Shown piece by piece: positions 1,209 to 25,080 of a stretch of DNA of 47,190 nucleotides. Made by a program: the position numbers and the translations under genes. Below the pieces are notes generated by a model that saw only the letters and a list, made by a program, of their open reading frames with translations, had not been told where the DNA came from and searched no databases. The DNA is taken from positions 1 through 47,190 of IMG/VR virus record IMGVR_UViG_3300042539_001117. One strand, written 5' to 3'. The stretch comes from a virus. The number at the start of each line of letters is the position of its first letter. Positions within the stretch are counted from its first letter, which is position 1.

Positions 1209-4097
1209 GTGGCAGACAAAGATTTTGTAATCAAGCATGGATTAGTGGTTGGCGACACCGCTACGATCAATGGCGTACAAATTGATCTGTCTGGCGCTAC
1301 TCCCAACCAGGTTTTAAAATTTGATGGCACTAAGTTTGCCCCAGCCACCGCCTCTGATAGCCCAGCAAGCGTTTCTTATGAAGAAACAATTGGGAATAAT
1401 ACCGACACAACATTTACAATTGCACACAACCTTGAGACTAAGGACTTGAATGTAATTGTAAGAGAGAACATTAGTCCTTATGATGTTGTCGAGGTAGCCT
1501 GGGAAGCAACAACTGCGAATATAATTACTTTAAACTTTGAATTAGCACCGACTACAAATTCTAAACGAGTAGTCATCAAAGGCCCAGGAACTAAAGAGTT
1601 TTATTCAACCCTAATAGGAGATGGATCAAACTCTACAATAGTCATAAATCATGGTCTTAATTCTAAAAATGTAGTTCCAGTTATAAGAAATGCACAATCC
1701 TTGTTTGAAGTTGTTGAAGTTTTAGCTCAAGCAACTACTTTAAATACAATCACTTTAGATTTTGCAACTGTTCCAGAAGCGTCATCTTTAATGGCATCTG
1801 TTTATTTATTAGATGTAGATAATTCTCATTTTTCAACTGTCGGTGATGGAACCAATAGTGAATTTACAATTACTCACAATTTAAACACTAGAGACATTGG
1901 GGTGACATGTAGGCTGACAGCTAGCCCATATGATTTCGTATCAATAAGATGGGAAGCTACAAGTGCTAATGTGGCTAAGGTTATTTTTTCTTCTCCACCA
2001 ACAGCAAATTCTAGAAAAATAGGCATTTATAAATCTTTGGGTGGAAAAAAACCTTTTAATGATGAAGTAACATTAGATATTTTAGATGACGTTTCTATTA
2101 CTTCAGCTTCAAATGGACAATTTTTAAGTTGGAATGGAACAAATTGGGTTAACGCAAGTGCACCTGGTGGTGGAGGAATTAATCAGCTTGATGATATTAG
2201 TGACGTATCTGCAGCTACCCCCAACGCGGGTGAAGTTCTTCAGTGGAATGGTAACGCATGGGTTTCATCACTGGTGGTTGGTCCAGCTGGTGACACGGGA
2301 CCAGCAGGCCCAACTGGCCCAGAAGGTCCAACTGGATCAATAGATGCACTTGCAGATGTTGTGATAACATCTGCCACAAATGGTCAACTATTACAATTTA
2401 ATGGAACAAATTGGGTGAATTCCGCCCCCGCAGAATTGACAATTACAAATGATTTAACAGTTGGCGGAAACTTAATTGTTTCTGGAACTACAACAACCCT
2501 CAACACAGAAACTTTATTAATTGAGGATAATATAATTGTTCTTAATTCAGGAGTTTCATCTTCTCCGTCTACAAATGCGGGTATAGAAGTTGAAAGAGGA
2601 ACATCAACAAATGTTCAACTTCGCTGGAATGAAACCACAGACAAGTGGGAAACTACTAACGATGGTTCAACGTTCGCAGCAATTTCTACCAATGGTAACA
2701 TTAACCTTGGGACAGATACAGTTGGAGATTATGTATCCTCACTAATTGCTGGGACAAACATTACAATTAGTAACAACTCTGGAGAAAGTGCAACTCCAAC
2801 TATTTCGGTTTCTGGGAACGTTTCTGGGGTTGACTCAATATCAAATATAGATTTTGTTCAGTTTGACACAACCGCAAATGCAACACCTGTTGCTGGATTG
2901 CTTGGTTGGGATTCAGTTCAGGGAACACTAAATCTTGGCCTGACTGCAAGCAAGCATATACACATTGGCGAAGAGTCACTATTTCGTGTCCGCAATTCGA
3001 CTGGTGCGACAATCGGCAAAGGTACTGCGGTATATGCATCGGGCGTAGAGCCAAGCGGTCGCATCCAGGTAACGCCATATGTTGCTGATGGCGTAATACG
3101 TGAAGCACGATTTATGGGCCTTGCTGCTGAATCAATTGCAAATGGTGTTAATGGATTTGTCCAACACTTTGGACACGTAAGAGACCTTGACACAAGAGGA
3201 ACTTCATCGACAGCAATTAGCGTTGGTGATGAAACCTGGGCTGCTGGAGATATTCTCTATGTTCACCCAACAGTTGCTGGAAAGCTAACCAATGTCGCAC
3301 CCCGACATGCCATTATTGTTGCTTTGATAATTATCAGACATGCATCAGCTGGCTCGTTGTTTGTAAGGTCTTCTAGCGGTGGACATATTGAAGATATACA
3401 CGATATTCTTTTAACATCTCCAACGGACGGTCAATTTTTGCGTTATGACAGTGCCTCAGCAGCATGGGTAAACGACGCCATTAATCTTGGAACAGACACT
3501 ATTGGCGACTATGTTTCTTCACTCGTTGCAGGAACTGGAATTACGCTTTCAAATAATTCTGGTGAAGGCGCAACTCCAACAATTGCAGTTAATACATCAG
3601 TTATACAATCTAGAGTGTCAAATGTTTCTGATGAAGAAATTGGTTACCTTGATGGTGTTACTTCAGCAATTCAAACACAATTAAACACAAAAGCGCCTCT
3701 TGCATCGCCTACATTTACTGGGACCGTAACTGGAACCCCTACTGCTGGAACAACATCAACTGGAACTAGTGGTTTTGGTTATATGGGTTTGCCACAAAAC
3801 GGTGCGACTACAGGTGCTTATGGGATTGTTGCTGCTGATGCTGGAACACATATTTATTCAAGTGCAACTCGCACGATAACTATCCCCGCTAATGCAACAA
3901 TTGCTATGCCTATTGGTTCAACTATTGTGTTTATTGCGGGTTCTGGTGCAACGGTTACGATAGCAATAACATCAGACACGATGTATTTGGCAGGTCTTGG
4001 CACAACGGGTTCTAGGACCCTTGCAGCGTTTGGTATGGCAACTGCTGTAAAGATAACTTCAACATCGTGGATAATTAGCGGTAATGGACTTACCTGA
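1209..4097 (+). CDS. Large modular tail fibre with collagen-like stretch
   Basis: 962 residues from a GTG start; GAGGG at 1191-1195 is a rather distant ribosome site. Residues ~60-290 hold three diverged repeats with the pattern (T/E)FTI-x-HNL followed by a V-x-W/A-x-AT segment. These are followed by several short repeats of the type GQFLSWNGTNWVN. Residues ~356-378 are a collagen-like run of Gly-Pro-x triplets (GPAGDTGPAGPTGPEGPTG). Next comes fibre module copy 2, then a segment with the common phage motif EEIGYLDGVTSAIQTQLNTK. The C-terminal beta-rich domain (from ~residue 860) resembles the C-terminus of the fibre at 6507, so it is probably a shared tip. It overlaps the next gene by TGATG, suggesting translational coupling. 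Receptor binding is inferred. Confidence 0.82.
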   Translation: MADKDFVIKHGLVVGDTATINGVQIDLSGATPNQVLKFDGTKFAPATASDSPASVSYEETIGNNTDTTFTIAHNLETKDLNVIVRENISPYDVVEVAWEATTANIITLNFELAPTTNSKRVVIKGPGTKEFYSTLIGDGSNSTIVINHGLNSKNVVPVIRNAQSLFEVVEVLAQATTLNTITLDFATVPEASSLMASVYLLDVDNSHFSTVGDGTNSEFTITHNLNTRDIGVTCRLTASPYDFVSIRWEATSANVAKVIFSSPPTANSRKIGIYKSLGGKKPFNDEVTLDILDDVSITSASNGQFLSWNGTNWVNASAPGGGGINQLDDISDVSAATPNAGEVLQWNGNAWVSSLVVGPAGDTGPAGPTGPEGPTGSIDALADVVITSATNGQLLQFNGTNWVNSAPAELTITNDLTVGGNLIVSGTTTTLNTETLLIEDNIIVLNSGVSSSPSTNAGIEVERGTSTNVQLRWNETTDKWETTNDGSTFAAISTNGNINLGTDTVGDYVSSLIAGTNITISNNSGESATPTISVSGNVSGVDSISNIDFVQFDTTANATPVAGLLGWDSVQGTLNLGLTASKHIHIGEESLFRVRNSTGATIGKGTAVYASGVEPSGRIQVTPYVADGVIREARFMGLAAESIANGVNGFVQHFGHVRDLDTRGTSSTAISVGDETWAAGDILYVHPTVAGKLTNVAPRHAIIVALIIIRHASAGSLFVRSSSGGHIEDIHDILLTSPTDGQFLRYDSASAAWVNDAINLGTDTIGDYVSSLVAGTGITLSNNSGEGATPTIAVNTSVIQSRVSNVSDEEIGYLDGVTSAIQTQLNTKAPLASPTFTGTVTGTPTAGTTSTGTSGFGYMGLPQNGATTGAYGIVAADAGTHIYSSATRTITIPANATIAMPIGSTIVFIAGSGATVTIAITSDTMYLAGLGTTGSRTLAAFGMATAVKITSTSWIISGNGLT
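2469..2672 (+). repeat. Fibre module copy 2
   Basis: Second copy of the ~70-codon module, with NTETLLIEDNIIVLNSG and NAGIEVERGTSTNVQLRWNE as landmarks, inside the 1209-4097 fibre gene. The other copies are at 141-348 and 8016-8220. Confidence 0.8.
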
Positions 4098-5642: not shown

Positions 5643-6449
5643 ATGCCTGTAGAAGAACAATCAATCAATATAACAATACCTAAAGAAAAGCTCGAGCAAT
5701 GGAATGTATTCTTTGCACTTCCTTGTTATGACTCACATGTGACTGAGCCTTTTATGATGAGCTTTTTGCAAGCTTGTCTTTATTTTAAAGAAATAGGTTT
5801 AAAATATTCAGTCTGCACAATATCTGATTCTTTGATCAACCGCGCTAGAAATAACTTGGTTGCCAAATTTATGGGCAATCCTGATTTTACTCATATGGTA
5901 TTTATAGACGTAGATCTCCAATTTGATAAAGAAGCTATATTAAAATTATTGTGGCATGATAAAGATGTTATGACTGCATCTTACCCAATAAAAGAAATTA
6001 ATTGGGATAAAGTAAAAGAAGGTGCACAAGCAGACTTACTTGCCCAAGACTTGATGGAGTACGCCACAAGATATGTAGTTCATATGACTAAGCCTGGTGA
6101 GACTCAATTAAATATTGATAATGGCGCAATCGAATGCTATGAGGCAGGAACAGGCTTTATGCTTATTAAGCGTCAAGTCTTTGATAAGATGTTTAAGAAG
6201 TATAAAAAGTTAAAATACAAAGATGATACAGGCGCATTGCATGGGGAAGAGATAGAAAACGCCTACGCTTTATTTAATTCTTATGTAGATGATGACGGAA
6301 GATTCTTATCTGAGGATTACGGCTTCTGTAGATATTGGCAGAAGATGGGTGGAAAGATTTGGGTTGATCCAACTATTAACTTAACCCATTTTGGACGTAT
6401 CAAATATACGGGAAAAATGTTAGAATTTTTAAAGAGAATAACACAATAA
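5643..6449 (+). CDS. GT-A fold glycosyltransferase-like protein
   Basis: 268 residues. It starts with an N-terminal strand NVFFALPCYD (residues ~21-30), followed by a helix and SDSLINRARNNLVAKF (residues 61-76). Next comes the metal-binding DxD signature in FIDVDLQF (D89, D91), then SYPIKEINW and a late EDYGFCRYW motif. This arrangement is that of phage GT-A glycosyltransferases that use nucleotide sugars and a divalent metal. The catalytic-base candidate is in the EDYGF segment. It has its own promoter and no visible ribosome site, so it may be a separately expressed leaderless gene. Target (fibre glycosylation, DNA or host envelope) cannot be told; the fibre-rich neighbourhood favours virion or surface decoration. 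Confidence 0.72.
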   Translation: MPVEEQSINITIPKEKLEQWNVFFALPCYDSHVTEPFMMSFLQACLYFKEIGLKYSVCTISDSLINRARNNLVAKFMGNPDFTHMVFIDVDLQFDKEAILKLLWHDKDVMTASYPIKEINWDKVKEGAQADLLAQDLMEYATRYVVHMTKPGETQLNIDNGAIECYEAGTGFMLIKRQVFDKMFKKYKKLKYKDDTGALHGEEIENAYALFNSYVDDDGRFLSEDYGFCRYWQKMGGKIWVDPTINLTHFGRIKYTGKMLEFLKRITQ

Positions 6450-8544: not shown

Positions 8545-8983
8545 ATGGCACAGGATGATGGCAAGAAACAAAAAAGAAAAGCCCCTAAACCTACAATAGC
8601 TGCGCGGAGTAGCCGACTCTACTGCTAACACAACCATAACAGCTGCGGGCTTTACCGTTGGAACACCTTCAGATACAGCTACCGCTAATCCTGCCATTCT
8701 AAACCAGGTTAAAACAGCGGTAACAGACACTGCTGTTACGCCATTGGGCACAAGTATTTCCTATGAAAGACACGCCCCGTTCTTCCCACCTTACTTCCCA
8801 CCATTTTTCCCACCGTTTTTCCCGCCTTACTTTCCACCATATTTCCCACCATATTTCCCACCGTTTTTCCCACCGTTTTTCCCACCGTTCTTCCCACCGT
8901 TCTTCCCACCGTTCTTCCCACCGTTCTTCCCACCGTTCTTCCCACCGTTTTTCCCACCTTACTTCCCACCAGTATTTAAATAG
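8545..8983 (+). pseudogene. Proline-rich (FPPx)n protein gene interrupted by a +1 frameshift
   Basis: From ATG 8545 the first frame reads MAQDDGKKQKRKAPKPTIAA and stops at 8626-8628. The +1 frame has a stop at 8597-8599 and is then open to the TAG at 8981-8983. It encodes a Thr/Ala-rich segment (ADSTANTTITAAGFTVG, AILNQVKTAVTDTAV), then SYERHAPF and sixteen FPPx tetrapeptides ending VFK. A single +1 shift between 8600 and 8625 would join them into a protein of about 145 residues. Options are programmed frameshifting, real inactivation or a sequence error. A TTG at 8744 could start only the repeat part. Function is unknown; the polyproline character suggests an extended structural segment and a possible prolyl-hydroxylase substrate. 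Codon use in the repeat is not random, with CCA/CCG and TTC/TTT alternating. Confidence 0.6.
8783..8974 (+). repeat. 12-base tandem repeat, 16 units, encoding FPPx
   Basis: Sixteen consecutive 12-base units of the form TT(C/T)CC(A/G)CC(A/G/T)TTY or TAY, each coding Phe-Pro-Pro-(Phe/Tyr), with Val in the last. Variants are clustered, with Tyr units 1, 4-6 and 15 and eight Phe units in a row at 7-14. This suggests expansion by slippage or unequal recombination. Confidence 0.9.
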
Positions 8984-8990
8984 ATGGATA

Positions 8991-9022
8991 AAAAAACCCG
9001 CCTTATAAAGGCGGGTTTTATA
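8991..9022. terminator. Bidirectional intrinsic terminator between convergent genes
   Basis: A 12-bp perfect stem (8993-9004 with 9008-9019) around the loop ATA. The sequence is AAAACCCGCCTT pairing with AAGGCGGGTTTT. An A-run precedes and a T-run follows, so it can end transcription of the plus-strand proline-rich gene and of the minus-strand oxygenase gene. Confidence 0.9.
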
Positions 9023-9042
9023 TCTATATAAAATAATGGATA

Positions 9043-9660
9043 TTATAATTTTGTAATTGTGTAAAAAGATGGTGTAGTAAATCTTTCTCCAGACTTAATT
9101 ACCTTGACACCATGTAGATAATTAATGTCACCAGGATGAGCTACTGCAAGCCCAGGTTCTGGCTTTACTTCAATGTCATGTTCAGGGTAATATAATTCGC
9201 CGCCCTCAAAATCATCATTATAATATATAAGTGAATTTAGATCATACGTAGGGAATGGGTTTGGTGATCCATCGTTTAGCTGTTTATCAGCATGTGGACG
9301 TTGCTCTATCCCAGGAAACCATCTTATTATAACTGGTGGTCTAACTGACAATTCAACATTAAAAGAATCTTCTAAAAAATATTTCATTTTTAATATATAT
9401 TTGTCAACAAGATTATAAATATCTAAATTTATCTTAGATAAGATCTCACCACTACACTGTCTATTCGACCAATAAGAGGCATCGTACGTGCACGTGCCGT
9501 CTTCTGAGTATTGATTTTCACCAGCATCCATCCACTGATTAATTGTTGGTAAAAAATCTTGTATAATTTTAAGGTCTTCTAAATCTACAAAGTTTTTTAT
9601 AATTTTTATATTGTCTTTCGAACTGCCAAAATGTCCTGGTTTTACTAAAGATTCTTCCAC
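9043..9660 (-). CDS. Fe(II)/2-oxoglutarate oxygenase, prolyl-hydroxylase type
   Basis: 205 residues and the only gene on the minus strand. The start is GTG at 9660-9658, preceded by AAAGGA at a six-base gap. The jelly-roll oxygenase core is clear. The HxD iron motif is RPHADK (H123, D125), then LIYYNDDFEGGELYYP (strand pair typical of prolyl 4-hydroxylases). The distal iron ligand is H183 in YLHGV, and R193 in GERF would bind the 2-oxoglutarate carboxylate. The reaction is hydroxylation of a protein or small-molecule carbon using O2 and 2-oxoglutarate. It converges on the proline-rich gene at 8545 and diverges from another oxygenase at 9732. The substrate is unknown. Confidence 0.85.
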   Translation of the reverse strand: MEESLVKPGHFGSSKDNIKIIKNFVDLEDLKIIQDFLPTINQWMDAGENQYSEDGTCTYDASYWSNRQCSGEILSKINLDIYNLVDKYILKMKYFLEDSFNVELSVRPPVIIRWFPGIEQRPHADKQLNDGSPNPFPTYDLNSLIYYNDDFEGGELYYPEHDIEVKPEPGLAVAHPGDINYLHGVKVIKSGERFTTPSFYTITKL

Positions 9661-9731: not shown

Positions 9732-10466
9732 ATGGAATTTTTTCATGTTGGCGCGTGTGCAGATAGTAAAGACAATGCTAAATTCGGCATCTATTTGTAC
9801 AGAAATGCTATTCCAAGAGAGTTAAATATTCCAGAAAGATTAGAAGAAGCAATAGGCGACAGCACGCACGAGTTGTTTAAGTGGTCAGAAGCGATGGTTG
9901 GCTATAACGTAAAAATGCCGGACTATAGAGATTGTGTAGACCTCAAAATGAGCCCAAGTCATTGGCAGTATTTAACTCCAGAATTTGAAGAAGTAAAAAA
10001 ATGCTACGAAGATGTAGAGACAAATTTAAAGAAATGCCTGACTCATTACGAATCTTTATATAATTTTAAGATGGATTATATGGAAGCTATAAACTTTGTT
10101 AGATATAAGCCGGGTCAACATTTTGCGGTGCACGCTGACCACGGTTTTTCATATACGTGTACATTGTCTTCGGTCATGTATTTAAATGATGATTATGAGG
10201 GTGGTGAATTGTGGTTTCCTTATCTCAATATAAACTTTAAACCACAAGCTGGGGATATAGTTTTGTTCCCTTCAACATATATATATGCGCATTCTTCATT
10301 GAAAGTAAAAAGCGGTGTTAAATATTCTGCTGTTACTATGTTTGATTATAACGACAATAACCACAAACATGGCATTGGCTATGGTGGTGACGGAAGCAAA
10401 ATAACAGAAAATGTTGGGATATCTAAAGCGGACAATGTTCCTTTAACATACCCAATGCCACAATAG
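9732..10466 (+). CDS. Prolyl-4-hydroxylase-like Fe(II)/2-oxoglutarate oxygenase
   Basis: 244 residues. The iron triad is H134/D136 in FAVHADHG and H187 in IYAHSS. The strand pair is VMYLNDDYEGGELWFPY, followed by KPQAGDIVLFPS. The 2-oxoglutarate anchor position is Lys (K197 in SGVKYSAV) rather than the Arg used by most neighbours. Lys is the residue used by animal collagen prolyl 4-hydroxylases. The C-terminal tail after residue ~205 is His/Gly/Asn-rich (NDNNHKHGIGYGGDG). It is the first gene of the plus-strand island operon and is followed after nine bases by a peroxidase-fold gene. The substrate is not known; the proline-rich or collagen-like virion proteins are candidates by context only. 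Confidence 0.87.
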   Translation: MEFFHVGACADSKDNAKFGIYLYRNAIPRELNIPERLEEAIGDSTHELFKWSEAMVGYNVKMPDYRDCVDLKMSPSHWQYLTPEFEEVKKCYEDVETNLKKCLTHYESLYNFKMDYMEAINFVRYKPGQHFAVHADHGFSYTCTLSSVMYLNDDYEGGELWFPYLNINFKPQAGDIVLFPSTYIYAHSSLKVKSGVKYSAVTMFDYNDNNHKHGIGYGGDGSKITENVGISKADNVPLTYPMPQ

Positions 10467-10475
10467 GAGGGCATT

Positions 10476-11099
10476 ATGGAGAATCAGCAAATAAACCCGT
10501 TGGAAATACCAACAGTTGAATACTATGATGAATCTATATATGATTTAAACCTAGAGTCTTTAGACGGAGAAGAAAACATCTTTGAAAAGAATAAAGGCAA
10601 AGTTACAATGCTCGTTAATGTTACCGGGGAATGTGCTAATTCCCCACAGTATGTAACTATACAAAATTTATATGATAAATATAAAGATTTGGGTTTTGAA
10701 GTGGTAGCGGTTCCAAGTACGGATTTTTGTGACCATGCATATGGAGATTTTAAGGACTCAAATGCAAGTCCAGAACTTATGCGTAGCCATATGAAGGAAT
10801 TGTATAAAACAGATTTACCATTTGCTAAAATGGCAGCAATTGTAGAAGATTCAGCAACAGGTTTGCCAGTTCATCCGTTCTATGAAAAGGTTCAAGAAAA
10901 TAAAGATCCTATTCAAGGTAATTTTGAAAAGTTTATTATTAGCAAAGATGGCAAAAAGGTAGTTAGATACTGCAACTCGGATCTGCTTGACCTTGCATAT
11001 AATTCAGGGAATAGAACGATTAATTCCGAAACAGCGTTGAAAAGTATTACTGAAACTATAGAGCATTTTCTTGGTGAATCAGATATAATAGTTGAATGA
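10476..11099 (+). CDS. Divergent glutathione-peroxidase-fold protein, Cys retained
   Basis: 207 residues, with GGAGG six bases before the ATG. After an acidic ~40-residue lead it shows the thioredoxin-like peroxidase fold: GKVTMLVNVTGEC, where C53 is the peroxidatic position of NVAS-x-C. Next are YDKYKDLGFEVVAVPSTDF and GNFEKFIISKDGK. In the usual Cys-Gln-Trp-Asn tetrad, Cys is kept, the CNQFG-x-QE segment with Gln is replaced by STDFCDHAYG, Trp becomes Gly148, and Asn149 is kept. Thiol peroxidase activity is possible but compromised; a redox-sensing, thiol-exchange or scaffold role is an alternative. A second, more decayed homologue lies at 20780. Confidence 0.7.
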   Translation: MENQQINPLEIPTVEYYDESIYDLNLESLDGEENIFEKNKGKVTMLVNVTGECANSPQYVTIQNLYDKYKDLGFEVVAVPSTDFCDHAYGDFKDSNASPELMRSHMKELYKTDLPFAKMAAIVEDSATGLPVHPFYEKVQENKDPIQGNFEKFIISKDGKKVVRYCNSDLLDLAYNSGNRTINSETALKSITETIEHFLGESDIIVE

Positions 11100-11800
11100 C
11101 TAAAGTTACCTTAACAAAGACAACTCAAGACGCACCAGAAATACGCCAGTCACGAATAAAGCGTGAGTGGATGGACAACACCTATAACAAGCATGCCTAC
11201 CAGTGTTTGCCTATGACGTATGCAAACGTTTATGGCTGGGAATTGATTCTGCCGCAAGATGTTGTCGCTCAGTGGGATGGTGGCAATACAGTGCCTAAGA
11301 TCCTTGAAGGGGCAGAGTACAAGGGTAGACAAATAGCTTACGGTGGAATCATTGGAATGGTTTCCTTTTCTACTGGATGGGCATTCGGCACTGAAGACGG
11401 TTATGAAACCTCAATTGGAGGTTCTCCAAATTACATGGTAGATGGAGCTTCTCCTTTGTCGGCAATAATACCGAGCAGCTGGTGGCCAGATGAATTCCAA
11501 ATGAATTGGATGATAAATAAAATTGGGGAACCAGTTGTCTTTGAAGCAGGAATGCCTTTTATGTTTTTTAATATTTTTGATAGCACAGTTACAAATAGCG
11601 TAGAATTCAAAGTAGAAAATTTGTGGGATAAACCAGAGCTAATGAACTCTAGGCAAAAATATGGCGATATGAAAATGAAAAATAATCAAGAAAATCCTTG
11701 GACATGGACAAAGGGAATAAGAACTGGCGTTGATGCAGACGGCAATAGAATTGGGCCAAGTTTTACTGGTCTACCAAAGTTAGATGAACCAAGTTTATGA
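11096..11800 (+). CDS. Uncharacterised protein, possible DUF6065 relative
   Basis: 234 residues, overlapping the preceding stop (ATGA). The protein is Trp-rich, with NVYGWELILPQDVVAQWDGG, then GIIGMVSFSTGWAF, then SSWWPDEFQMNWMINKIGEP and FEAGMPFMFFNIFDST, and a polar C-terminus. The combination of a W-E-(L/I)-x-x-P motif, a W-P-x-x-x-Q-M-N-W motif and a later F-x-F-(F/I)-N-I segment recalls the uncharacterised DUF6065 family. I assign that from memory and with low confidence. Those families commonly sit beside 2-oxoglutarate oxygenases and cupin-like proteins. No catalytic residues can be named. It is translationally coupled upstream to the peroxidase-like gene and downstream to cassette 1. 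Confidence 0.45.
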   Translation: MTKVTLTKTTQDAPEIRQSRIKREWMDNTYNKHAYQCLPMTYANVYGWELILPQDVVAQWDGGNTVPKILEGAEYKGRQIAYGGIIGMVSFSTGWAFGTEDGYETSIGGSPNYMVDGASPLSAIIPSSWWPDEFQMNWMINKIGEPVVFEAGMPFMFFNIFDSTVTNSVEFKVENLWDKPELMNSRQKYGDMKMKNNQENPWTWTKGIRTGVDADGNRIGPSFTGLPKLDEPSL

Positions 11801-13138: not shown

Positions 13139-13816
13139 ATGATTATTATAGATGATTTCATAAAAGATAAAAATTTATTAGAAGAAATAGAGTTAACTCC
13201 AAATTTCTTTCCAGAATCAATGGGCGACGAAGAAAAAATAGCTACAGTTTTAAATGGTTATCACGATGGACAATGTGATTGTTTTGCGCCGTATATGTTT
13301 TGGGATGGTTGGTTAAAATCTGAGGCAGATACTCCAAGAAAAAGATTAATTAAAAAAATATGGGAGAACAATCTTCCATTTCCAGTAGAAGACGTTTGCG
13401 GTTTTGAGTATTGGACTAGAACTTTTAAGCCTGGACAATTTCTTGATACTCATGTAGATGAAGATACATTTCTTTACGCAGATAAAAAAATATTTAGAGG
13501 ACCAAGAATAGGTTGTGTATATTATCCGCACACCAATGATGTGGTTGGTGGATTTTTAGAGATGCATCCTACAGCTATTTCAGAAGATACAGCTAACGCT
13601 TTAGAGAAAGAAAATATAGATCATTTAATAGTTCCAGTAGAGTTAAGAGAGAGAATATCTTGTAAGCCAAATAGGCTAATAATTTTTGACGCTGGACATG
13701 TCATACATAACACGACTCCACCGATTAAAGGTGTTAGAAGAGTTGTGGTGGTAAATGTGTGGCATAAAGATAACCCACCATCAGCTTTAAAAACTGGTGA
13801 ATTTTATTATGAATGA
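13139..13816 (+). CDS. Fe(II)/2-oxoglutarate oxygenase
   Basis: 225 residues, starting three bases after the previous stop. The N-terminus reads MIIIDDFIKDKNLLEEIE, the usual opening of phage-type oxygenases. The HxD is in FLDTHVDEDT (H105, D107). The distal His is H187 or H190 in FDAGHVIHNTTPP, followed by GVRRVVVVNVW with R200 or R201 as the 2-oxoglutarate anchor. Between them is an insertion (residues ~140-175) that is absent from the short neighbours and could shape substrate entry. It follows cassette 1 and overlaps the start region of the next oxygenase, so the two are probably co-translated. Substrate unknown. Confidence 0.82.
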   Translation: MIIIDDFIKDKNLLEEIELTPNFFPESMGDEEKIATVLNGYHDGQCDCFAPYMFWDGWLKSEADTPRKRLIKKIWENNLPFPVEDVCGFEYWTRTFKPGQFLDTHVDEDTFLYADKKIFRGPRIGCVYYPHTNDVVGGFLEMHPTAISEDTANALEKENIDHLIVPVELRERISCKPNRLIIFDAGHVIHNTTPPIKGVRRVVVVNVWHKDNPPSALKTGEFYYE

Positions 13817-14405
13817 AAAAATTGATTTATTTACATTAAGTATATGTAAAACTTTTTTACAAAACATTGACAATGATAAGTTGTTGAAGGAAATAGAAAA
13901 ATTTGACACAACACCAAATGTAAAAGATCCATCACCGGCTCATACTTTTTACGAAGATAAGCTTTATCCTTTTGGTCAACCAGAATCAATGAAGTTAATT
14001 GATGAAATAACTAATTCTGTCAATCATTTTACTAACTCAGATATGGTTATGGATTCTATTTGGACTATAACTCTAGAAAAAGGCCAGTCTGTTTTAAGCC
14101 ACACGCACAAGGTAAACACTCAGCTTTATCCAGAAGAATATTATTCTGTTTCATACTATGTAAGCGCACCAGAAGATAGCGCAGATTTAATATTTGTTAC
14201 CACACACTGTAATACAATAGAGAGAGCAACTTCAGTTAAAACAGAGACAGGAATGTTGTTGATATTTAACTCTTATATTCCCCATATGACAAATAGGCAA
14301 TATTCGGAAGAAAAAAGAGTTGTCGTAAGTGCAAACTTTAGTCCTAAAACACCGAACACTAACCCTACCGCAGATTGGTCGGAATATAGGGTGCCAAATA
14401 GGTAA
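13809..14405 (+). CDS. 2OG-Fe(II) oxygenase-like protein with HxH motif
   Basis: 198 residues from ATG 13809; a GTG at 13797 would add four residues, but GGTGA is better spaced for 13809. The core is SIWTITLEKGQSVLSHTHK, YYSVSYYVSAPEDSADLIFV, then ETGMLLIFNSYIPHMTNR and EEKRVVVSANFSP. Iron-ligand candidates are H98 and H100 (HTH instead of HxD) and H159, with R170 as the 2-oxoglutarate anchor. This pattern matches the PF13759 type (2OG-FeII_Oxy_5), where the H-x-H form is usual. It is the last gene before a promoter at 14435, so it ends the first island operon. Activity is likely but unproven; a non-catalytic cupin is the alternative. Confidence 0.75.
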   Translation: MNEKIDLFTLSICKTFLQNIDNDKLLKEIEKFDTTPNVKDPSPAHTFYEDKLYPFGQPESMKLIDEITNSVNHFTNSDMVMDSIWTITLEKGQSVLSHTHKVNTQLYPEEYYSVSYYVSAPEDSADLIFVTTHCNTIERATSVKTETGMLLIFNSYIPHMTNRQYSEEKRVVVSANFSPKTPNTNPTADWSEYRVPNR

Positions 14406-17145: not shown

Positions 17146-17880
17146 ATGATACCAAAAATAATATGGCAAACTCATAGTTTCCTACTTGAAGATCTCCCTC
17201 TCTTTGCTAAGGGCCCCATGCTATCTTGGATTGAGCAGAATAAAGACTATACCCATAATTATGTAAACCATTTTGAAAGAGAATCTTTTATATATAATAC
17301 TTTTGGAGAAGATTGGCTTAACTTCTATAAGCAATGTCAGTCGCAAGTTTTTCAAGCTGACATGTGGAGAGTCTTATGTCTGTACGAACACGGTGGCATA
17401 TACGCAGACATGGATACGATATGTCTGTCTGGTATAGATTCTTTTTTAGATTTAAATAAAGATTTTATTTGTGAAGCTGGTTTTCCAAAAACACATGGGT
17501 GGATAAATACTTCAATTTTTGCTAGCGAACCTAAAGGAAAGTTTATAACAAAATTAAAAGATCTTTTGTATAAAAGATGTAAAGATAAGGATGGAGAACC
17601 AATAACGGTTGAAGATTGTGGACCGTTAGCATTTAGTGAAGCAATGGATAAATATATGGATGACGGATGCGACATGTCGGACATTAGTTTATGCGAGTTT
17701 AATTATCCAGTTAATAATAAAGAATCTGTTTTACAAATTTTTGGGTCGACTACTTGGAATGATGTTAAATGGGGTTTTGATTTTTCTTATTTAAATGAAA
17801 TATATAGTTCAATTATAAAAGATTCAAAAACAGATATTAAAATTTATACCAAAACAGGTCATGGTGGTTGGAATGTTTAA
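17146..17880 (+). CDS. GT32-like glycosyltransferase
   Basis: 244 residues, starting one base after the preceding stop codon. The N-terminus IPKIIWQTH (residues 2-10) and the core VFQADMWRVLCLYEHGGIYADMD with its DxD (D88, D90) are the signature of the GT32 / Och1-like sugar-transferase family. That family uses nucleotide sugars and a metal ion. A catalytic-region ENCGP-like segment appears as VEDCGPLAFSEAM. It probably adds a hexose to a glycan or protein. It lies in the operon with the ferritin-like, methyltransferase and TauD-like genes. Together with the GT-A gene at 5643, it gives this phage two sugar transferases near its fibre genes. Confidence 0.83.
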   Translation: MIPKIIWQTHSFLLEDLPLFAKGPMLSWIEQNKDYTHNYVNHFERESFIYNTFGEDWLNFYKQCQSQVFQADMWRVLCLYEHGGIYADMDTICLSGIDSFLDLNKDFICEAGFPKTHGWINTSIFASEPKGKFITKLKDLLYKRCKDKDGEPITVEDCGPLAFSEAMDKYMDDGCDMSDISLCEFNYPVNNKESVLQIFGSTTWNDVKWGFDFSYLNEIYSSIIKDSKTDIKIYTKTGHGGWNV

Positions 17881-17897: not shown

Positions 17898-18266
17898 ATG
17901 GCCTATGAATTGGTGGGCAAAAGCCCAACATCCGCAGTGGGTCTGTGTGTCAGATTAAATATTTGGAAATGGTATGAGTTTGTCAGAATGATTAGCTATT
18001 TTAATATAATCTCTGATTTAGAAATTTCGTCCTGGATGACAAATGATCAGGTTGAATTGTCCAGTGAGGAAGCAATATTATTATCGGAAAATATAAAATC
18101 AAATCTTGATAACTTTGATTATTTTATAAATGAACTTTACAAAGAAGACATCCCCTATTCACACATGCCGTGGCACAGAGAAGTTTGTTGTCCAATTTTA
18201 AATGGATCTGACATCAAATATGTGCTATTATTTTTAGAATCATGTGGTGGGTTTAAGGTTAGATGA
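17898..18266 (+). CDS. Uncharacterised 122-residue protein
   Basis: Starts after a 17-base gap; a GTGAG lies near but no strong ribosome site is seen. Visible parts: MAYELVGKSPTSAVGLCVRL, then WKWYEFVRMISYFNII, an acidic helix ELSSEEAILLSENIKSNLDN, and a C-terminal DIKYVLLFLESCGGFKVR. Cys-rich in the last third (HREVCCPI and SCGG). No family is recognised. The end overlaps the ATG of the oxygenase at 18263 (GATGA), so the two are probably translated together. A regulatory or accessory partner of that enzyme is possible. Confidence 0.6.
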   Translation: MAYELVGKSPTSAVGLCVRLNIWKWYEFVRMISYFNIISDLEISSWMTNDQVELSSEEAILLSENIKSNLDNFDYFINELYKEDIPYSHMPWHREVCCPILNGSDIKYVLLFLESCGGFKVR

Positions 18267-19027
18267 AGGTGGAAAGAATGTATAAGCCGAGAATAATTGT
18301 ATTTACCGATTTTCTACCAAAGGAAGATTGGGAAGTTGTAGATAAGTATTGTAGAGATAATAAAGAAAAATTTCCATATGTCGGTTACGGTTCTCCGGTT
18401 AGATGGAAGATAGAGGAGCATTCTAAAAATCCAGATATTAAATATATTCGTTCTTTTTTAATTTCAGAAGAAGAATATGATCTATATATGAAGGGTGAAA
18501 TACCGGAGCCTTATCCAAACGATACAAAGCATGGCGACAACTATGTGATGTCGGTAGAAGAGATCCAAAAGGTTGAGGAAGAGCCACCTGTAACTGCACT
18601 CATGCACCATTCTAAATGGCCAAATAGCTTACTGCAAAATAAAACATTTGACATTATAAGCGGTTACCTGTCTGGTGTCGTAAGTATAGTAAAAGAAGTA
18701 TATGGTGAAGATTGTTTCAGTGAAAGTGGCCCTTGGATAGCGGTAGCTAGAGAAGGTGGCTATATGAATATGCACTGTGACGGAACGTTTATACATAACA
18801 GGGACGCCATTACACAGTATTCTAGCGTGTATTACATCAATGACGATTACGAGGGCGGCGAATTCAATATGCCGCTGATGGGCTTTAAGCTTAAACCTAA
18901 AGCAAATTCGCTTCTTATTTTTACCCATTCTTCCCATGAAGATATGGCGCATGAGGTAACACCAGTTTTATCTGGTGATCGTTTTGTTTCACAAGGATTT
19001 TTTGCCATTACAAAAACCAATAGCTGA
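18263..19027 (+). CDS. Fe(II)/2-oxoglutarate oxygenase, prolyl-hydroxylase type
   Basis: 254 residues from the overlapping ATG 18263; an in-frame ATG at 18278 is an alternative start. The first 130 residues form a long helical lead including a Glu-rich segment (SVEEIQKVEEEPPV). The core has MNMHCDGTFIH (H171, D173), VYYINDDYEGGEFNMP, KPKANSLLIF, then EDMAHEVTPVLSGDRF with distal H230 and R240. It is closest in style to the genes at 9732 and 21397. The last gene before the promoter at 19028, it ends the second island operon. Substrate unknown. Confidence 0.86.
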   Translation: MKVERMYKPRIIVFTDFLPKEDWEVVDKYCRDNKEKFPYVGYGSPVRWKIEEHSKNPDIKYIRSFLISEEEYDLYMKGEIPEPYPNDTKHGDNYVMSVEEIQKVEEEPPVTALMHHSKWPNSLLQNKTFDIISGYLSGVVSIVKEVYGEDCFSESGPWIAVAREGGYMNMHCDGTFIHNRDAITQYSSVYYINDDYEGGEFNMPLMGFKLKPKANSLLIFTHSSHEDMAHEVTPVLSGDRFVSQGFFAITKTNS

Positions 19028-20490: not shown

Positions 20491-20787
20491 ATGATTACTA
20501 AATGGAAAGCAACAGTGGTTAATCCACTTGGAACAGAAAAATACAGTGTAAACCTGGACAGTACGGATGACTTAGCCACCGCTACGGCGTCAAGCGAAAA
20601 GGGTACCGTGCAGTTTGTGCAAACACAAAGCCTAAGTCCTCTATTCGCCGCAAACATAGAAGCTCCAATGAAAACAAGATTAGAGCTAGAATTTAGCACC
20701 AATGATTTTACCTCAAAAGATATGTCAGCTGTTTTAAGGGTAGGAGATTTTTCTAGTATGAAAGTAGATTTGGTTAGATATGAATAA
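20491..20787 (+). CDS. Uncharacterised 98-residue protein
   Basis: First gene after the promoter at 20474. It encodes MITKWKATVVNPLGTEKYSV and a beta-rich, Ser/Thr-rich body with GTVQFVQTQSLSPL and APMKTRLELEFSTNDF, and ends MKVDLVRYE. It has no Cys or His and no catalytic pattern, so it may be a small beta-barrel or a binding protein. Family not recognised. It overlaps the peroxidase-fold gene at 20780 by eight bases, suggesting coupling. Confidence 0.6.
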   Translation: MITKWKATVVNPLGTEKYSVNLDSTDDLATATASSEKGTVQFVQTQSLSPLFAANIEAPMKTRLELEFSTNDFTSKDMSAVLRVGDFSSMKVDLVRYE

Positions 20788-21400
20788 TTCAGCATACGAT
20801 ATTGAGCTATTGTCAATCGACGGCTCATATGACATTATGGGGTCAATGAAGGGCAAATTAACTCTTGTAACAAATATAGCTTCAAAATTAGGCTATGATC
20901 CTAAGTGTAGTGTAACTTTTTCTTACGCAAGAACTTGTAAATATTTATGGGAACTTGAATTCATTTATCAAAAATATAAAGATCAAGGCTTTAGCGTCGT
21001 TGGTATACCATGTAATCAATTTGGGAAACAAGAGCCAAAAGAGAATAACGAAATAGAAGCTTTTATCAAAGAAGCTTATCCTTTTGTAAGTTTTCCTATT
21101 TCTCAAAAAATAGAAGTTAACGGCAAAAATGAACATCCGCTTTATTCTTTTTTAAAGGGACCAGAAAAAAGAGGATATTCAGACACTACCGCAGACAGCA
21201 GCGATGCAGCTATTGAAGGACAGAATTTAGTTGGTCAGGCAATAGCAAGAATTCCACATAGCTACGAAAAGTTCTTATTAAGCCCTCAAGGAATGTTTAT
21301 TACTAGATTTAATTGGCAAGATGGACCACTAGATGAGGAGCCTAGAGTTATGGGCGCTGGTTGGACCATTATGGAAGCGATAGAGGAGATGCTAGGATGA
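20780..21400 (+). CDS. Glutathione-peroxidase-like protein with altered active site
   Basis: 206 residues. The fold is clear: GKLTLVTNIASKLGYDPKC, FIYQKYKDQGFSVVGIPCNQ, FGKQEPKENNEIEAF, YSFLKG and YEKFLLSPQGM. Active-site positions: the peroxidatic Cys/Sec of NVAS-x-(C/U)-G is Leu37; the Gln of FG-x-QE is kept (Q84); the Trp-Asn of WNFEKF are His160 and Ser161. An extra ~12-residue insertion carries C43 and C53, and C78 is in the CNQ motif. So the classical reaction is unlikely unless an inserted Cys substitutes. Contrast the product of 10476, which keeps Cys and Asn. It is followed by four tandem oxygenases starting inside its stop codon. Confidence 0.8.
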   Translation: MNNSAYDIELLSIDGSYDIMGSMKGKLTLVTNIASKLGYDPKCSVTFSYARTCKYLWELEFIYQKYKDQGFSVVGIPCNQFGKQEPKENNEIEAFIKEAYPFVSFPISQKIEVNGKNEHPLYSFLKGPEKRGYSDTTADSSDAAIEGQNLVGQAIARIPHSYEKFLLSPQGMFITRFNWQDGPLDEEPRVMGAGWTIMEAIEEMLG

Positions 21401-22494
21401 GCTACAATATAGAGTCAGAAAATTCCCAAATTAGAGATGTAGCGTTCCCCTCTAGCCCGCCCCTCAATGAGGACACCGTAAAGGAAATATCCACAATTGA
21501 ATGCGAAATCCTTGGCCCAGGTGTCGTGGTTTTTAGGAACGCTTTTCAGATAGATCAGGACGCAGTGCTAACGCATATTGATTCCAATGCAGAAGAAGCG
21601 CATAAAACCCGATGGGAATATGTTGAGGTTGATGGCGTAAAAATGGGCATCAATGAAGACGGCTTTAGGTATAGGATGGAAGACGTACCAGCAGCACCGA
21701 TAAGATTGCTTGACCCGGTAAATGAATCTACGCCTAAAGAAGTAGAAGAGTTTCTATACACTTTGGAAGACCAAATATACAAGTGTCTGATAAAGTACAT
21801 AGACCACTACCCCCTGATGCTTGGTAGCATATGGTGGAAGACAAGAGGCCATATATTGCGCTATGGAGATGGTGGAAGACTTGGTTGTCACGCAGATAAT
21901 GATACTAATTATAAGGTGACAAAAGGCGTTAGGTATATGCCAAAGGGTATGGTCGCATCAAGACAAACATGCGGTGCTTTAATTTACCTAAATGATTGCG
22001 TAGATTCTGAAGAAGAATTAAATGGAAGAAATTTTACAGGCGGACATCTTAGGTTTGTTCATTTGGGAATTTCTTATAAGCCAAGAAAAGGTGACATAAT
22101 ATTCTTCCCAACAAATTACGTCGCGTCCCACGATGTAGAAACTATGGGTAAGGGTGTTAGATATAGTTATTTAACTTTTTTTGGTCAAGGCGCAAATGAT
22201 AAGAGCGCAAATATTATGATAGTTGAACCAGATGAAAGTTTCCAATGGTGTCCTCCTGTTTGGTTAAATAATATATATGATGATTACGAAATGTATTGCA
22301 AATCTCCATATTCTATTTTTTCTGATCCAGGAAAAAACAATGTAGAAGTTGGTTGGAACCCAGTTTACCAAGGAAGAGAAGTCGCACAGTACAGCGCATC
22401 ACACGATGCGGTTGAGGTTGAAGAAGCTAAAGCTGATACTGTATCCGAAGATCTACCAGAAGGACCATGCGGTACTGAAGCTGTAAGAATCTAA
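21397..22494 (+). CDS. Tandem oxygenase array copy 1 (Fe(II)/2-oxoglutarate)
   Basis: 365 residues from the ATG overlapping the previous stop (ATGA). Core: SIWWKTRGHILRYGDGG, then LGCHADND (H165, D167), ALIYLNDCVDSEEELNG, FTGGHLRFVH, KGDIIFFPTNYVASHDV (distal H245) and GVRYSYLTFFG (R255). It is the longest of the four copies, with a ~70-residue C-terminal acidic extension (DAVEVEEAKADTVSEDLPEG) that the others lack in this form. The N-terminal ~130 residues contain the shared VVVFRNAFQIDQDAV and WEYVEVDG region. A hydroxylase of protein or peptide is inferred; the substrate is unknown. Confidence 0.86.
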   Translation: MSYNIESENSQIRDVAFPSSPPLNEDTVKEISTIECEILGPGVVVFRNAFQIDQDAVLTHIDSNAEEAHKTRWEYVEVDGVKMGINEDGFRYRMEDVPAAPIRLLDPVNESTPKEVEEFLYTLEDQIYKCLIKYIDHYPLMLGSIWWKTRGHILRYGDGGRLGCHADNDTNYKVTKGVRYMPKGMVASRQTCGALIYLNDCVDSEEELNGRNFTGGHLRFVHLGISYKPRKGDIIFFPTNYVASHDVETMGKGVRYSYLTFFGQGANDKSANIMIVEPDESFQWCPPVWLNNIYDDYEMYCKSPYSIFSDPGKNNVEVGWNPVYQGREVAQYSASHDAVEVEEAKADTVSEDLPEGPCGTEAVRI

Positions 22495-22498
22495 TATT

Positions 22499-23413
22499 AT
22501 GAAAATAGAAAAATTAGGAACTGGAATTGTCCTATTCCAAAATGTTATCAACATGGAAGAATACCCTGAGATAATACCTTTCATAAAATCATTAAAGCAA
22601 AAGGCAGTAGAAGAAGATTATACGATAATTAAAAATGAACGCAATGAAAGTGTATATGCCATAAATAGAAGTGGGCATAGATATGCAATAGAGGATATAG
22701 AAAAAAGCTCTAGCCACATTATGAATTTTTTAGATAATAATGATTCTGATAAAATAGAATTGTTTTTTATTGAATGCGAAAGAGCTTTTAGGCAGTGCCT
22801 TCTTCAATACCTTGAGATATATCCGATGGCTCTTCCAAGTATATGGTGGAGAACTCAGGGGCATATATTAGCATATGGCCCAGGGAGCGACATGGGTCTC
22901 CATAGTGACAATGATGTTAACTACCAGCCTGGATTTGAACCAGATCTTCAAGTGGCGACTAGAAGTGTTTTGGGGTCTATCTTGTATTTTAATACATCTG
23001 TAGATTCAAAAGAAGAGATTATAAAAGATGAATATCTTGGCGGACATATAGTGTTCCCGTATTGTGATGTTGATTATTCTCCAAAAGCAGGAGATTTACT
23101 AATGTTTCCATCTAACTTCATTGCCTCACACGAGGTTAAGGAATGTTATGAAGGTGGAAGATATGCCTATATTGGTTATTATTCTCATGGTTCGGAGCAT
23201 ATAGAAAGAGGCATACAATTAATTAATGGGGATCTACCTGTTGGAAAACAGGGTCAAATATGGATGCCAGAGATAGTTGAAGAATATAAAGAATATATAT
23301 ACAATAAATACCCTGATAAGCCTGAAGATTTTTATGGCGATTTGCTCCAGGCAACCAAAAGAATGTATAATAGCGCTAATACACTAAAGGAAGTAAACCA
23401 TGAAATTCAATGA
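22499..23413 (+). CDS. Tandem oxygenase array copy 2 (Fe(II)/2-oxoglutarate)
   Basis: 304 residues, four bases after copy 1. Core: SIWWRTQGHILAYGPGSDMG, then LHSDND (H135, D137), ILYFNTSVDSKEEI, LGGHIVFPY, AGDLLMFPSNFIASHEV (H211) and GGRYAYIGYYSHGSEH (R221). The N-terminal region begins KLGTGIVLFQNVINMEEY, paralogous to copies 1, 3 and 4. The C-terminal region has WMPEIVEEYKEYIYNKYPD, which is shared with copy 3 (NLYMPTLVSDYRSYLLS). It overlaps copy 3 by 14 bases (start of copy 3 at 23400), a strong sign of co-translation. All metal and cofactor residues are intact. Confidence 0.86.
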   Translation: MKIEKLGTGIVLFQNVINMEEYPEIIPFIKSLKQKAVEEDYTIIKNERNESVYAINRSGHRYAIEDIEKSSSHIMNFLDNNDSDKIELFFIECERAFRQCLLQYLEIYPMALPSIWWRTQGHILAYGPGSDMGLHSDNDVNYQPGFEPDLQVATRSVLGSILYFNTSVDSKEEIIKDEYLGGHIVFPYCDVDYSPKAGDLLMFPSNFIASHEVKECYEGGRYAYIGYYSHGSEHIERGIQLINGDLPVGKQGQIWMPEIVEEYKEYIYNKYPDKPEDFYGDLLQATKRMYNSANTLKEVNHEIQ

Positions 23414-24281
23414 CGTTGATGCAAAGCATCTGGGTGGCGGTGTAGTTTTATTTGAATCAGCAATCGATATTGATTGGGATTACATTAGAGGGTTTAGTAG
23501 AGACGCTATTAATAAAGAAAAAGAAGAAATGTATGTCCCCGCTGTAGATCCAGAAACCGGCGATGAAATCTACCTTAATAAAAGTGGGTACTTTTTTGGC
23601 AAAGATAGTATTGACCAAATGCCAGGAAGAGGATCAGCGATACATAGATATAGTGACGAAAAAATAAAAGAAATATTTGATTTTGTAGAAGAATCAAAAG
23701 ATAAGTATTTGCTCAAGTATTTTGAACTATTCCCTTTGGCATTTAAATGCGTATGGTGGAAGGTTAAGGGACACATAGTTCAGTACAAAAAGGATGTTTA
23801 TTTGGGCAGCCATTCCGATGTTAGTGCAGATTACATATATGACGTTTGGACACCTAAAGACCAACTCGCGACTAGAAATACAATAAGCAATGTATTCTAC
23901 CTAACCTCTTGCGTTGACACTGTAGAGGAGTTAGATGGCACAAATTTTGTTGGAGGCCATCATTATTTTAATTATTTAGATATAAATGTAAAACCAAAAA
24001 AAGGTGATCTATTGATGTTCCCTTCTAATTTTATGGCAGCACATGAAGTCAAGCCAGTAGAGGATGGGGAAAGATACTCTTATCTTGGCTGGTACAGCCA
24101 TGGAACCCCAAATAGTGAGGTTGGGGAATCAGTTGTTGACCCAGGAAAAGAGCTAGAACTAGCAAAAAATGCCACCAACCTCTACATGCCTACCCTGGTT
24201 TCTGACTATAGAAGCTACCTTTTATCAAAGGGCTATGATGAATCGTCCGAGCAGTTTATGTTAACAAGATCGAATTATTAA
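23400..24281 (+). CDS. Tandem oxygenase array copy 3 (Fe(II)/2-oxoglutarate)
   Basis: 293 residues; the start lies 14 bases inside copy 2 with AAAGGAAG upstream. Core: VWWKVKGHIVQYKKDVYLG, SHSDVSADY (H138, D140), VFYLTSCVDTVEELDG, FVGGHHYFNYL, KKGDLLMFPSNFMAAHEV (H215) and GERYSYLGWYSHGT (R225). The opening KHLGGGVVLFESAIDIDWDY matches the shared N-terminal unit. The C-terminal segment NLYMPTLVSDYRSYLLSKG parallels copy 2. The catalytic set is complete, so loss of function is not evident. Divergence lies mostly in the loop after HxD and in the N-terminal lid, the regions expected to pick the substrate. Confidence 0.86.
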   Translation: MKFNDVDAKHLGGGVVLFESAIDIDWDYIRGFSRDAINKEKEEMYVPAVDPETGDEIYLNKSGYFFGKDSIDQMPGRGSAIHRYSDEKIKEIFDFVEESKDKYLLKYFELFPLAFKCVWWKVKGHIVQYKKDVYLGSHSDVSADYIYDVWTPKDQLATRNTISNVFYLTSCVDTVEELDGTNFVGGHHYFNYLDINVKPKKGDLLMFPSNFMAAHEVKPVEDGERYSYLGWYSHGTPNSEVGESVVDPGKELELAKNATNLYMPTLVSDYRSYLLSKGYDESSEQFMLTRSNY

Positions 24282-24282
24282 T

Positions 24283-25080
24283 ATGTTAAAAAAAGATTTT
24301 AAAATAGAAGATAAAGGTTCCGGGCTATGTGTAATGACAAACGCATTTGATATTGATCAAGACATGCTTTTTGAATATATAAACTGGCTTAAACAGGAAG
24401 AGGAAGACACCTTTACTTATTTGGAAGAAAATGGCAAAAAGTACGCTATTAACAGAACTGGTTTTAAGTTTGATTTATCAGAAGTAAGAGAGGCGCCAGA
24501 AAGATTCGTTGATCCGCTATGCAGAATGTCGAGCAGAAAGCCAACCGCCGAACAATGCAAATTAATATATGATTTAGAGGATTTAATTTACGAGGCTTTG
24601 GTTGAATACGTAAAGATATATGACGTAGCTGCAACAGTTTGTTGGTGGAGAAGCCCTGGTCACATAGCTACTTATTCGGACGGTCAAAAAATTGGTCCTC
24701 ATTGTGATGATCAAATTCCATGGGAATATGGTGTAGCTCCAAGAAATGAGTATCCAAAGCACAGTAAGGTAAGTATAAACATATACTTAAATGATGGCGT
24801 GGATTCTGAGGAAGAATTAAATGGAAGAAATTTCTTGGGCGGAGACATAATATTTAAATACGCGAAGTATAGACATAAGCCAAAAACTGGTAGTATAACT
24901 ATATATCCAACTAACTATGTTGGCACACACGAGGTTGAATCAGTTACCGCTGGGAAAAGAATAGCCTACCTTGGAGCACTTCTTTATGGGACTCCGGCTA
25001 ATGCTAGCCCCGTTCCAGAGGTTGGAGAAGAGAGAATATGGCTACAAAATCTAAGAAAAGATGCTGGGCTAATGCATTAA
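24283..25080 (+). CDS. Tandem oxygenase array copy 4 (Fe(II)/2-oxoglutarate)
   Basis: 265 residues, the shortest copy, one base after copy 3. Core: VCWWRSPGHIATYSDGQ, GPHCDDQIP (H140, D142), INIYLNDGVDSEEELNG, FLGGDIIFKYAKYRHKP, GSITIYPTNYVGTHEVES (H216) and GKRIAYLGALLYG (R226). The motif YLND-x-VDSEEELNGRNF is almost identical to copy 1, so copies 1 and 4 may be the closest pair in that region. There is no C-terminal extension. It is the last gene of the island. A non-oxygenase small gene at 25126 follows. Confidence 0.85.
   Translation: MLKKDFKIEDKGSGLCVMTNAFDIDQDMLFEYINWLKQEEEDTFTYLEENGKKYAINRTGFKFDLSEVREAPERFVDPLCRMSSRKPTAEQCKLIYDLEDLIYEALVEYVKIYDVAATVCWWRSPGHIATYSDGQKIGPHCDDQIPWEYGVAPRNEYPKHSKVSINIYLNDGVDSEEELNGRNFLGGDIIFKYAKYRHKPKTGSITIYPTNYVGTHEVESVTAGKRIAYLGALLYGTPANASPVPEVGEERIWLQNLRKDAGLMH

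Follow-up and report, generated by a model that had tools for sequence, protein, structure and literature searches.

The window analysed here, 47,190 nucleotides of DNA, is IMG/VR virus record IMGVR_UViG_3300042539_001117 from position 1 to position 47,190. It contains a gene, designated here the FPPx gene, that encodes an array of Phe-Pro-Pro-x units, directly follows a tail-fibre-like gene and is itself followed by genes for two prolyl-hydroxylase-like 2-oxoglutarate (2OG) oxygenases, oxygenase 1 and oxygenase 2 (Table 1). An original prediction had described sixteen FPPx repeats ending ~70 bases before a convergent oxygenase gene, with a divergent oxygenase carrying a Lys anchor next to it, and this layout is confirmed: the stop codon of oxygenase 1 lies 68 bases past the array and 59 bases past the FPPx stop codon at 8981-8983, which ends the frame as FK*. 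At the DNA level the array is a tandem repeat with a 12 bp period (16.2 copies, 87% matches, score 248). The hairpin between the convergent genes is probably a terminator that they share, and was not listed by a scan for consensus terminators. The tail-fibre-like protein ends in a C-terminal motif, TPGLKLRxxWS, that marks the locus in relatives, and many FPPx proteins have Cys-rich tails at their C-terminal end. The FPPx units lack Gly, and so the array is not a collagen-like (Gly-X-Y)n repeat; the only collagen-like run is one of 7 triplets, GPAGDTGPAGPTGPEGPTGSI, at residues 358-378 of the tail-fibre-like open reading frame (ORF) 1209-4097.

Table 1. Features of the FPPx locus and of the downstream region (positions are those of the window)
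Feature	Positions	Strand	Evidence and remarks
Tail-fibre-like gene, 678 aa	6507-8543	+	phrog_8745 tail fiber, E 1e-35; directly 5' of the FPPx gene
FPPx gene	8545-8983	+	Two frames: 0 frame 8545-8604 (MAQDDGKKQKRKAPKPTIAA), +1 frame 8606-8980; predicted product 145 aa
Candidate +1 frameshift site GCG_CGG_A	8605-8608	+	C8605 would be skipped and GGA read as Gly
Short N-terminal domain VADSTANTTITAAGFTVGTPSD...LGTSISYERHAPF	8609-8782	+	PASTA-like by eye only; no Pfam match
FPPx array	8783-8974	+	Exactly 16 in-frame units; x is Phe or Tyr, last x is Val
Hairpin between FPPx gene and oxygenase 1	8984-9027		-23.6 kcal/mol, z -5.4
Oxygenase 1, 205 aa, prolyl-hydroxylase-like, HADK family	9043-9660	-	Convergent; H123, D125, H183, Arg193
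Oxygenase 2, 244 aa, prolyl-hydroxylase-like	9732-10466	+	Divergent; H134, D136, H187, Lys197
Glutathione-peroxidase-like genes (two)	10476-11099, 20780-21400		In oxygenase island
DUF6065 protein	11096-11800	+	Pfam E 4e-42
2OG-Fe(II) oxygenase	13139-13816	+	PF13640 E 2e-4, below cut-off
2OG-Fe(II) oxygenase	13797-14405	+	PF13759 E 5e-9; phrog_81 E 3e-23
GT32-type glycosyltransferase	17146-17880	+	PF04488 E 7e-13; link to array unsupported
2OG-Fe(II) oxygenase	18263-19027	+	PF13640 E 1.5e-10
Four consecutive 2OG-Fe(II) oxygenases	21361-25080	+	21361-22494, 22499-23413, 23400-24281, 24283-25080; PF13640 E 1.9e-10, 7.2e-8, 3.1e-11, 6.8e-8, in order

The assignment of both enzymes as prolyl-hydroxylase-like is well supported by profile matches and structural models. 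Oxygenase 2 matches the Pfam family 2OG-FeII_Oxy_3 with E 2.6e-12 and oxygenase 1 with E 6e-4, below the cut-off, the latter also matching phrog_61 (E 4e-14). The HxD...H iron triads are invariant in alignments of 33 and 40 sequences, and the basic 2OG anchors, Arg193 in oxygenase 1 and Lys197 in oxygenase 2, are each at least 90% conserved, with these roles assigned by position. The residue that binds 2OG is Lys in collagen-type prolyl 4-hydroxylases (P4Hs) and Arg in the PHD type. The Lys anchor had been taken as a mark of a collagen-type enzyme; Lys197 is indeed present in oxygenase 2, but is not decisive because the anchor is Arg in oxygenase 1, whose family has the closest link to the arrays. 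In a PDB profile search, the Bacillus anthracis P4H was the best match for both (E 5e-11 for oxygenase 1 and 7.5e-11 for oxygenase 2). The AlphaFold models, with predicted local distance difference test (pLDDT) values of 94.7 and 87.6 for oxygenases 1 and 2, respectively, both have the double-stranded beta-helix fold of the P4H group. Foldseek placed a chlorovirus collagen prolyl hydroxylase (5c5t; E 7e-10) at the top of the matches to oxygenase 1, which also include human P3H1, whereas the top matches to oxygenase 2 are an algal P4H (2jig), the Pseudomonas putida P4H-EF-Tu complex (4iw3) and an algal P4H-(Ser-Pro)5 complex (3gze), with PHD2 also among its structure matches.

Arrays and oxygenases occur together well beyond this window. 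When IMG/VR was scanned for four FPPx units, at least 120 loci were returned, and oxygenases were sought there with profiles grown from four oxygenases of the window. Among distinct FPPx loci of sufficient length, 57 of 72 encode an oxygenase within 2.5 kb downstream and 1 of 57 does so upstream over the same distance (p 5e-21), so that the order, repeat gene then oxygenases, is conserved. Oxygenases matching phrog_61 are present on 47 of 50 long FPPx contigs, mostly with several per contig. FPPx genes are thus not commonly found without an oxygenase neighbour, and the proposed link of the repeats to prolyl-hydroxylase-like enzymes is borne out both by these tests and by the profile and Foldseek matches. 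As many FPPx proteins contain FnIII domains, loci fetched by an FnIII motif alone, with near-duplicates removed, served as a control. An oxygenase is located within 2.5 kb downstream at 16 of 17 FnIII loci with a Pro-rich tail and at 3 of 61 without one (p 9e-13). A stricter definition of the array gave 12/13 and 4/61 (p 1e-9), and two of these four array-less loci carry short PP-rich tails. In 43 FnIII control contigs, which include shorter ones than the FPPx set, phrog_61 had 3 matches, two of them outside the oxygenase part of the profile, leaving 1/43. Most array loci share one tail-fibre type, and a further scan was therefore made with the TPGLKLRxxWS motif, blind to arrays and enzymes. 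Among the 80 loci listed, with a 3 kb flank, array-bearing loci have an oxygenase in 29 of 31 cases, compared with 5 of 18 for array-less ones (p 2.6e-6). Oxygenases are therefore statistically linked to Pro-rich tails of several kinds. A neutral control with a random 16-mer gave 4 loci, too few for use, and a search for the Gp23 capsid protein, as a sign of confounding by a T4-like clade, found it on 0 of 50 contigs but also in none of the controls and so says little.

The association also holds in the reverse direction. Among the loci fetched through a general oxygenase motif, 16 HADK-family enzymes had 6 kb or more of upstream sequence, and for 13 of these an aromatic-Pro array lies no more than 9 kb away. 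Four apparent array-less exceptions encode six-residue (FFxPPG)n arrays between FnIII and Hint-like domains, indicating that the constant element is Pro-Pro within a repeat, in units whose length differs between arrays, as do the residues around Pro-Pro. The enzyme is also encoded downstream of aromatic-poor poly-Pro tails (L292, L312, L316, L356), pointing to proline as the common feature. Hint-like domains, recognized by eye, follow the aromatic-proline arrays at seven loci (L547, L574, L584, L613, L007, L069, L345), which suggests that the array protein may be cleaved or attached. Near some arrays (L118, L078, L099) two 2OG oxygenase domains are fused in tandem in one open frame. FPPx-like DNA in bacterial genomes comprises FPPV, FPPL, FPPR and FPPP arrays, many probably not real frames, that have no oxygenase. 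The sole bacterial-genome case with oxygenases, and with an aromatic x, is L475 (DUCD01000215.1, a Verrucomicrobiales metagenome-assembled genome), which has two FPPx genes and resembles a phage contig that was assigned to a bacterial genome by binning. Six other phage records gave one short PPYFPP match only, in S-SKS1, where the gene annotated at that place is on the other strand.

The FPPx gene itself appears to be read in two frames. No in-frame ATG occurs within the conserved part of the FPPx reading frame; the gene starts in another frame, at the ATG at 8545, from which 20 codons lead to a CGG at 8605 and then to a TAA stop at 8626-8628; the FPPx frame is +1 relative to this start. Every close relative examined has the break, and so do divergent ones, giving ~50 distinct sequences (including L002, L018, L043, L052, L057, L059, L063, L065, L070, L076, L085, L086, L089, L095 and others). 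It is always CGG followed by A, mostly after a GCN codon, and a second subclass has AAA_CGG_AAC at another position in the gene (L018, L057, L059). A sequencing error was considered and rejected, because the same break is kept in divergent relatives. Two relatives that do not have the extra C, and so have no break, L037 and L058, encode Gly exactly at that point; on the simplest reading, then, decoding passes over the C and resumes with GGA. CGG is used in 0 of 13,918 codons of the other genes in the window and in 2 of 43,902 codons in relatives. As expected of programmed frameshifting, the site is conserved at an otherwise avoided codon and the +1 frame is conserved as protein, making CGG_A in the FPPx gene a candidate programmed +1 frameshift site. 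FPPx genes that contain FnIII domains have an ordinary in-frame start, and the shift is therefore not general to FPPx genes. Relatives have CGG +1 sites in other genes (L065 at 3503, + strand; L086, L137, L164, L014), including tail-fibre genes in which the site follows ...GKLFYKNSTANAII (L065, L086, L137, L164). A codon-by-codon scan for other +1 sites returned many chance candidates at common codons, which makes the bare counts of little value; what distinguishes the CGG set is that its sites lie in homologous genes. In the window, there is a possible second CGG_A site at 46789 (CAG_CGG_AAA), which would carry ORF 46375-46851 into 46742-47188; past it, no stop interrupts the +1 frame over the 133 codons that remain in the window.

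Downstream of oxygenase 2, an island that extends to about 25.1 kb, where tail-sheath genes follow, encodes seven more Pfam-detected 2OG-Fe(II) oxygenases together with TauD-like, AurF-like, methyltransferase, glutathione-peroxidase-like, DUF6065 and GT32 genes. DUF6065 homologues occur at 64 of the 120 FPPx loci listed and at 18 of 115 FnIII loci, and relatives of the glutathione-peroxidase-like genes at 22 of the 120. Glycosylation of hydroxylated prolines by GT-A or GT32 enzymes, a further step of the original prediction, is not borne out. The GT32 family is absent from all 120 listed loci, which is weak evidence against such a step since the flanks are limited, and the supposed GT-A gene (5643-6449), with homologues at 10 of the 120, has no Pfam or PDB sequence match. 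In comparison with hydroxyproline-rich, extensin-like glycoproteins, the Pro-rich repeat is present and, within the same limited flanks, GT32 is not conserved with the arrays.

Taken together, these observations make it likely, although well short of certain, that the oxygenases encoded downstream hydroxylate the array prolines, an enzyme-substrate link best tied to the HADK family and Pro-Pro repeats. That the prolines are the target is deduced from the linkage and from the likeness of the enzymes. The array would form an extended Pro-rich segment of a protein that is probably a virion or tail component, given the position of its gene directly after the tail-fibre gene, and that would be produced by a +1 shift at CGG_A. 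During infection, at least one of the downstream prolyl-hydroxylase-like oxygenases, most likely the HADK-family oxygenase 1, would then hydroxylate prolines of the Pro-Pro units. As to the benefit, a stiffer or more hydrophilic rod, or altered adhesion, would be a guess. More broadly, aquatic phages might use their own hydroxylases to make hydroxyproline-containing, aromatic-proline tail rods as an extensin- or collagen-like adhesive, in a subgroup by way of the CGG +1 shift, a picture that we offer tentatively as possible rather than probable.

Several results weigh against hydroxylation of the arrays. The superfamily also occurs without arrays, an array being nearby at 11 of 18 oxygenase-motif loci with enough flank. 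Conversely, at 15 of the 72 FPPx loci the 2.5 kb interval is free of oxygenase genes, and 3 of the 50 FPPx contigs, possibly fragments, have none at all. An oxygenase follows the tail fibre in the 5 of 18 array-less loci of the tail-fibre-motif scan, and this test weakens with longer flanks and fewer loci (p 4e-4 at 4 kb, 0.017 at 6 kb). The oxygenase profiles were trained on FPPx loci and, as the loci are related and the counts not fully independent, all p-values are optimistic. TM-scores to P4Hs are moderate, about 0.5-0.7, making both enzymes relatives of the P4H group rather than close copies. Cyanophage S-SCSM1 has 24 reported 2OG genes, yet a search of it for an aromatic-PP array found none. 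The relevant passage of PMC7019647 (citing its ref. 162) states that amino-acid analysis of PBCV-1 virions found no hydroxyproline, which cautions against reasoning from the presence of the enzyme only.

The linkage could also arise if repeat and oxygenase genes were merely co-inherited in one broad phage group, sharing a locus and no function, with the oxygenases acting on sugars, small molecules or host proteins such as EF-Tu. The AurF-like, TauD-like, methyltransferase and GT32 genes of the island fit such a history, as do the tail-fibre C-terminal motif common to many such loci, the several paralogues per contig, seemingly more than one substrate needs, and the resemblance of oxygenase 2 to the EF-Tu prolyl hydroxylase 4iw3. 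This explanation is weakened, and to us now unlikely, in that an array predicts an oxygenase even within the same tail-fibre type (29/31 versus 5/18) and that the link spans different N-terminal domains (FnIII, PASTA-like) and repeat types (FPPF, FPFFPP, FFxPPG, poly-P). 2OG oxygenases hydroxylate many residue types, and the arrays are as rich in aromatics as in proline, so the array protein might instead be modified at Phe, Tyr or His, or in the adjacent Cys-rich tails in which many FPPx proteins end; with prolyl hydroxylases the closest solved structures to both enzymes, and the enzyme also encoded downstream of poly-Pro tails with few aromatics, such a target seems improbable. For cyanophage 2OG oxygenases, roles in DNA repair or in modulating host 2-oxoglutarate or nitrogen signalling have been proposed (PMC3037559, PMC2984593); some of the cyanophage genes adjoin uvsX and uvsY, and S-SCSM1 has several 2OG genes among its replication genes. 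Here the genes that precede the oxygenases are those for tail fibre and array rather than for replication, and the nearest structures to the enzymes are protein hydroxylases, leaving such roles very improbable.

If the array prolines are hydroxylated, phages make virion proteins that contain hydroxyproline, and proteomics searches that omit this modification would miss them. The pairing, seen in aquatic phages, suggests what a very common, unexplained class of phage enzyme may act on and, because an adjoining repeat gene predicts the presence of the oxygenase, the question becomes directly testable. The proposed phage substrate is new, whereas the enzyme fold was already known; no description of the array-oxygenase pairing was found in the open literature, a search that did not cover most subscription papers and preprints.

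Among known systems, the chlorovirus PBCV-1 P4H (vCPH, 5c5t), the top Foldseek match of oxygenase 1, is likewise a viral, short, stand-alone 2OG-Fe(II) enzyme, but has 15-16% identity and belongs to an algal virus, whereas here the enzyme gene adjoins one for a specific repeat protein. The algal P4Hs (2jig, 3gze) resemble oxygenase 2 in fold, and 3gze was crystallised with Pro-rich (Ser-Pro)5, but identity is about 17% and the repeat chemistry is Ser-Pro rather than Phe-Pro-Pro. We know of no repeat gene linked to the P4Hs of B. anthracis and P. putida. The former (3itq, 5hv0) is the top profile match of both families and the latter (4iw3) a fold match of oxygenase 2; these bacterial enzymes differ in having EF-Tu as the reported partner (entry titles of 5v7y and 4iw3). 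Cyanophage 2OG-Fe(II) oxygenases (Kyanoviridae, for example S-SCSM1) belong to the same superfamily and also have many paralogues per genome (PMC9602691), but many of them lie among replication genes. For the frame break, the closest counterpart is in glass-sponge mitochondria, where +1 frameshifting occurs at rare UGG_(A) and CGG_(A) (PMC5009743). As there, an extra base 5' of a GGA codon creates an otherwise almost unused CGG; here, in contrast, the site is in phage genes, is conserved in many relatives and the shift is predicted from sequence. If the prediction is correct, CGG_A extends a mitochondrial recoding signal to phages, and would explain why gene callers would miss the start of the FPPx gene.
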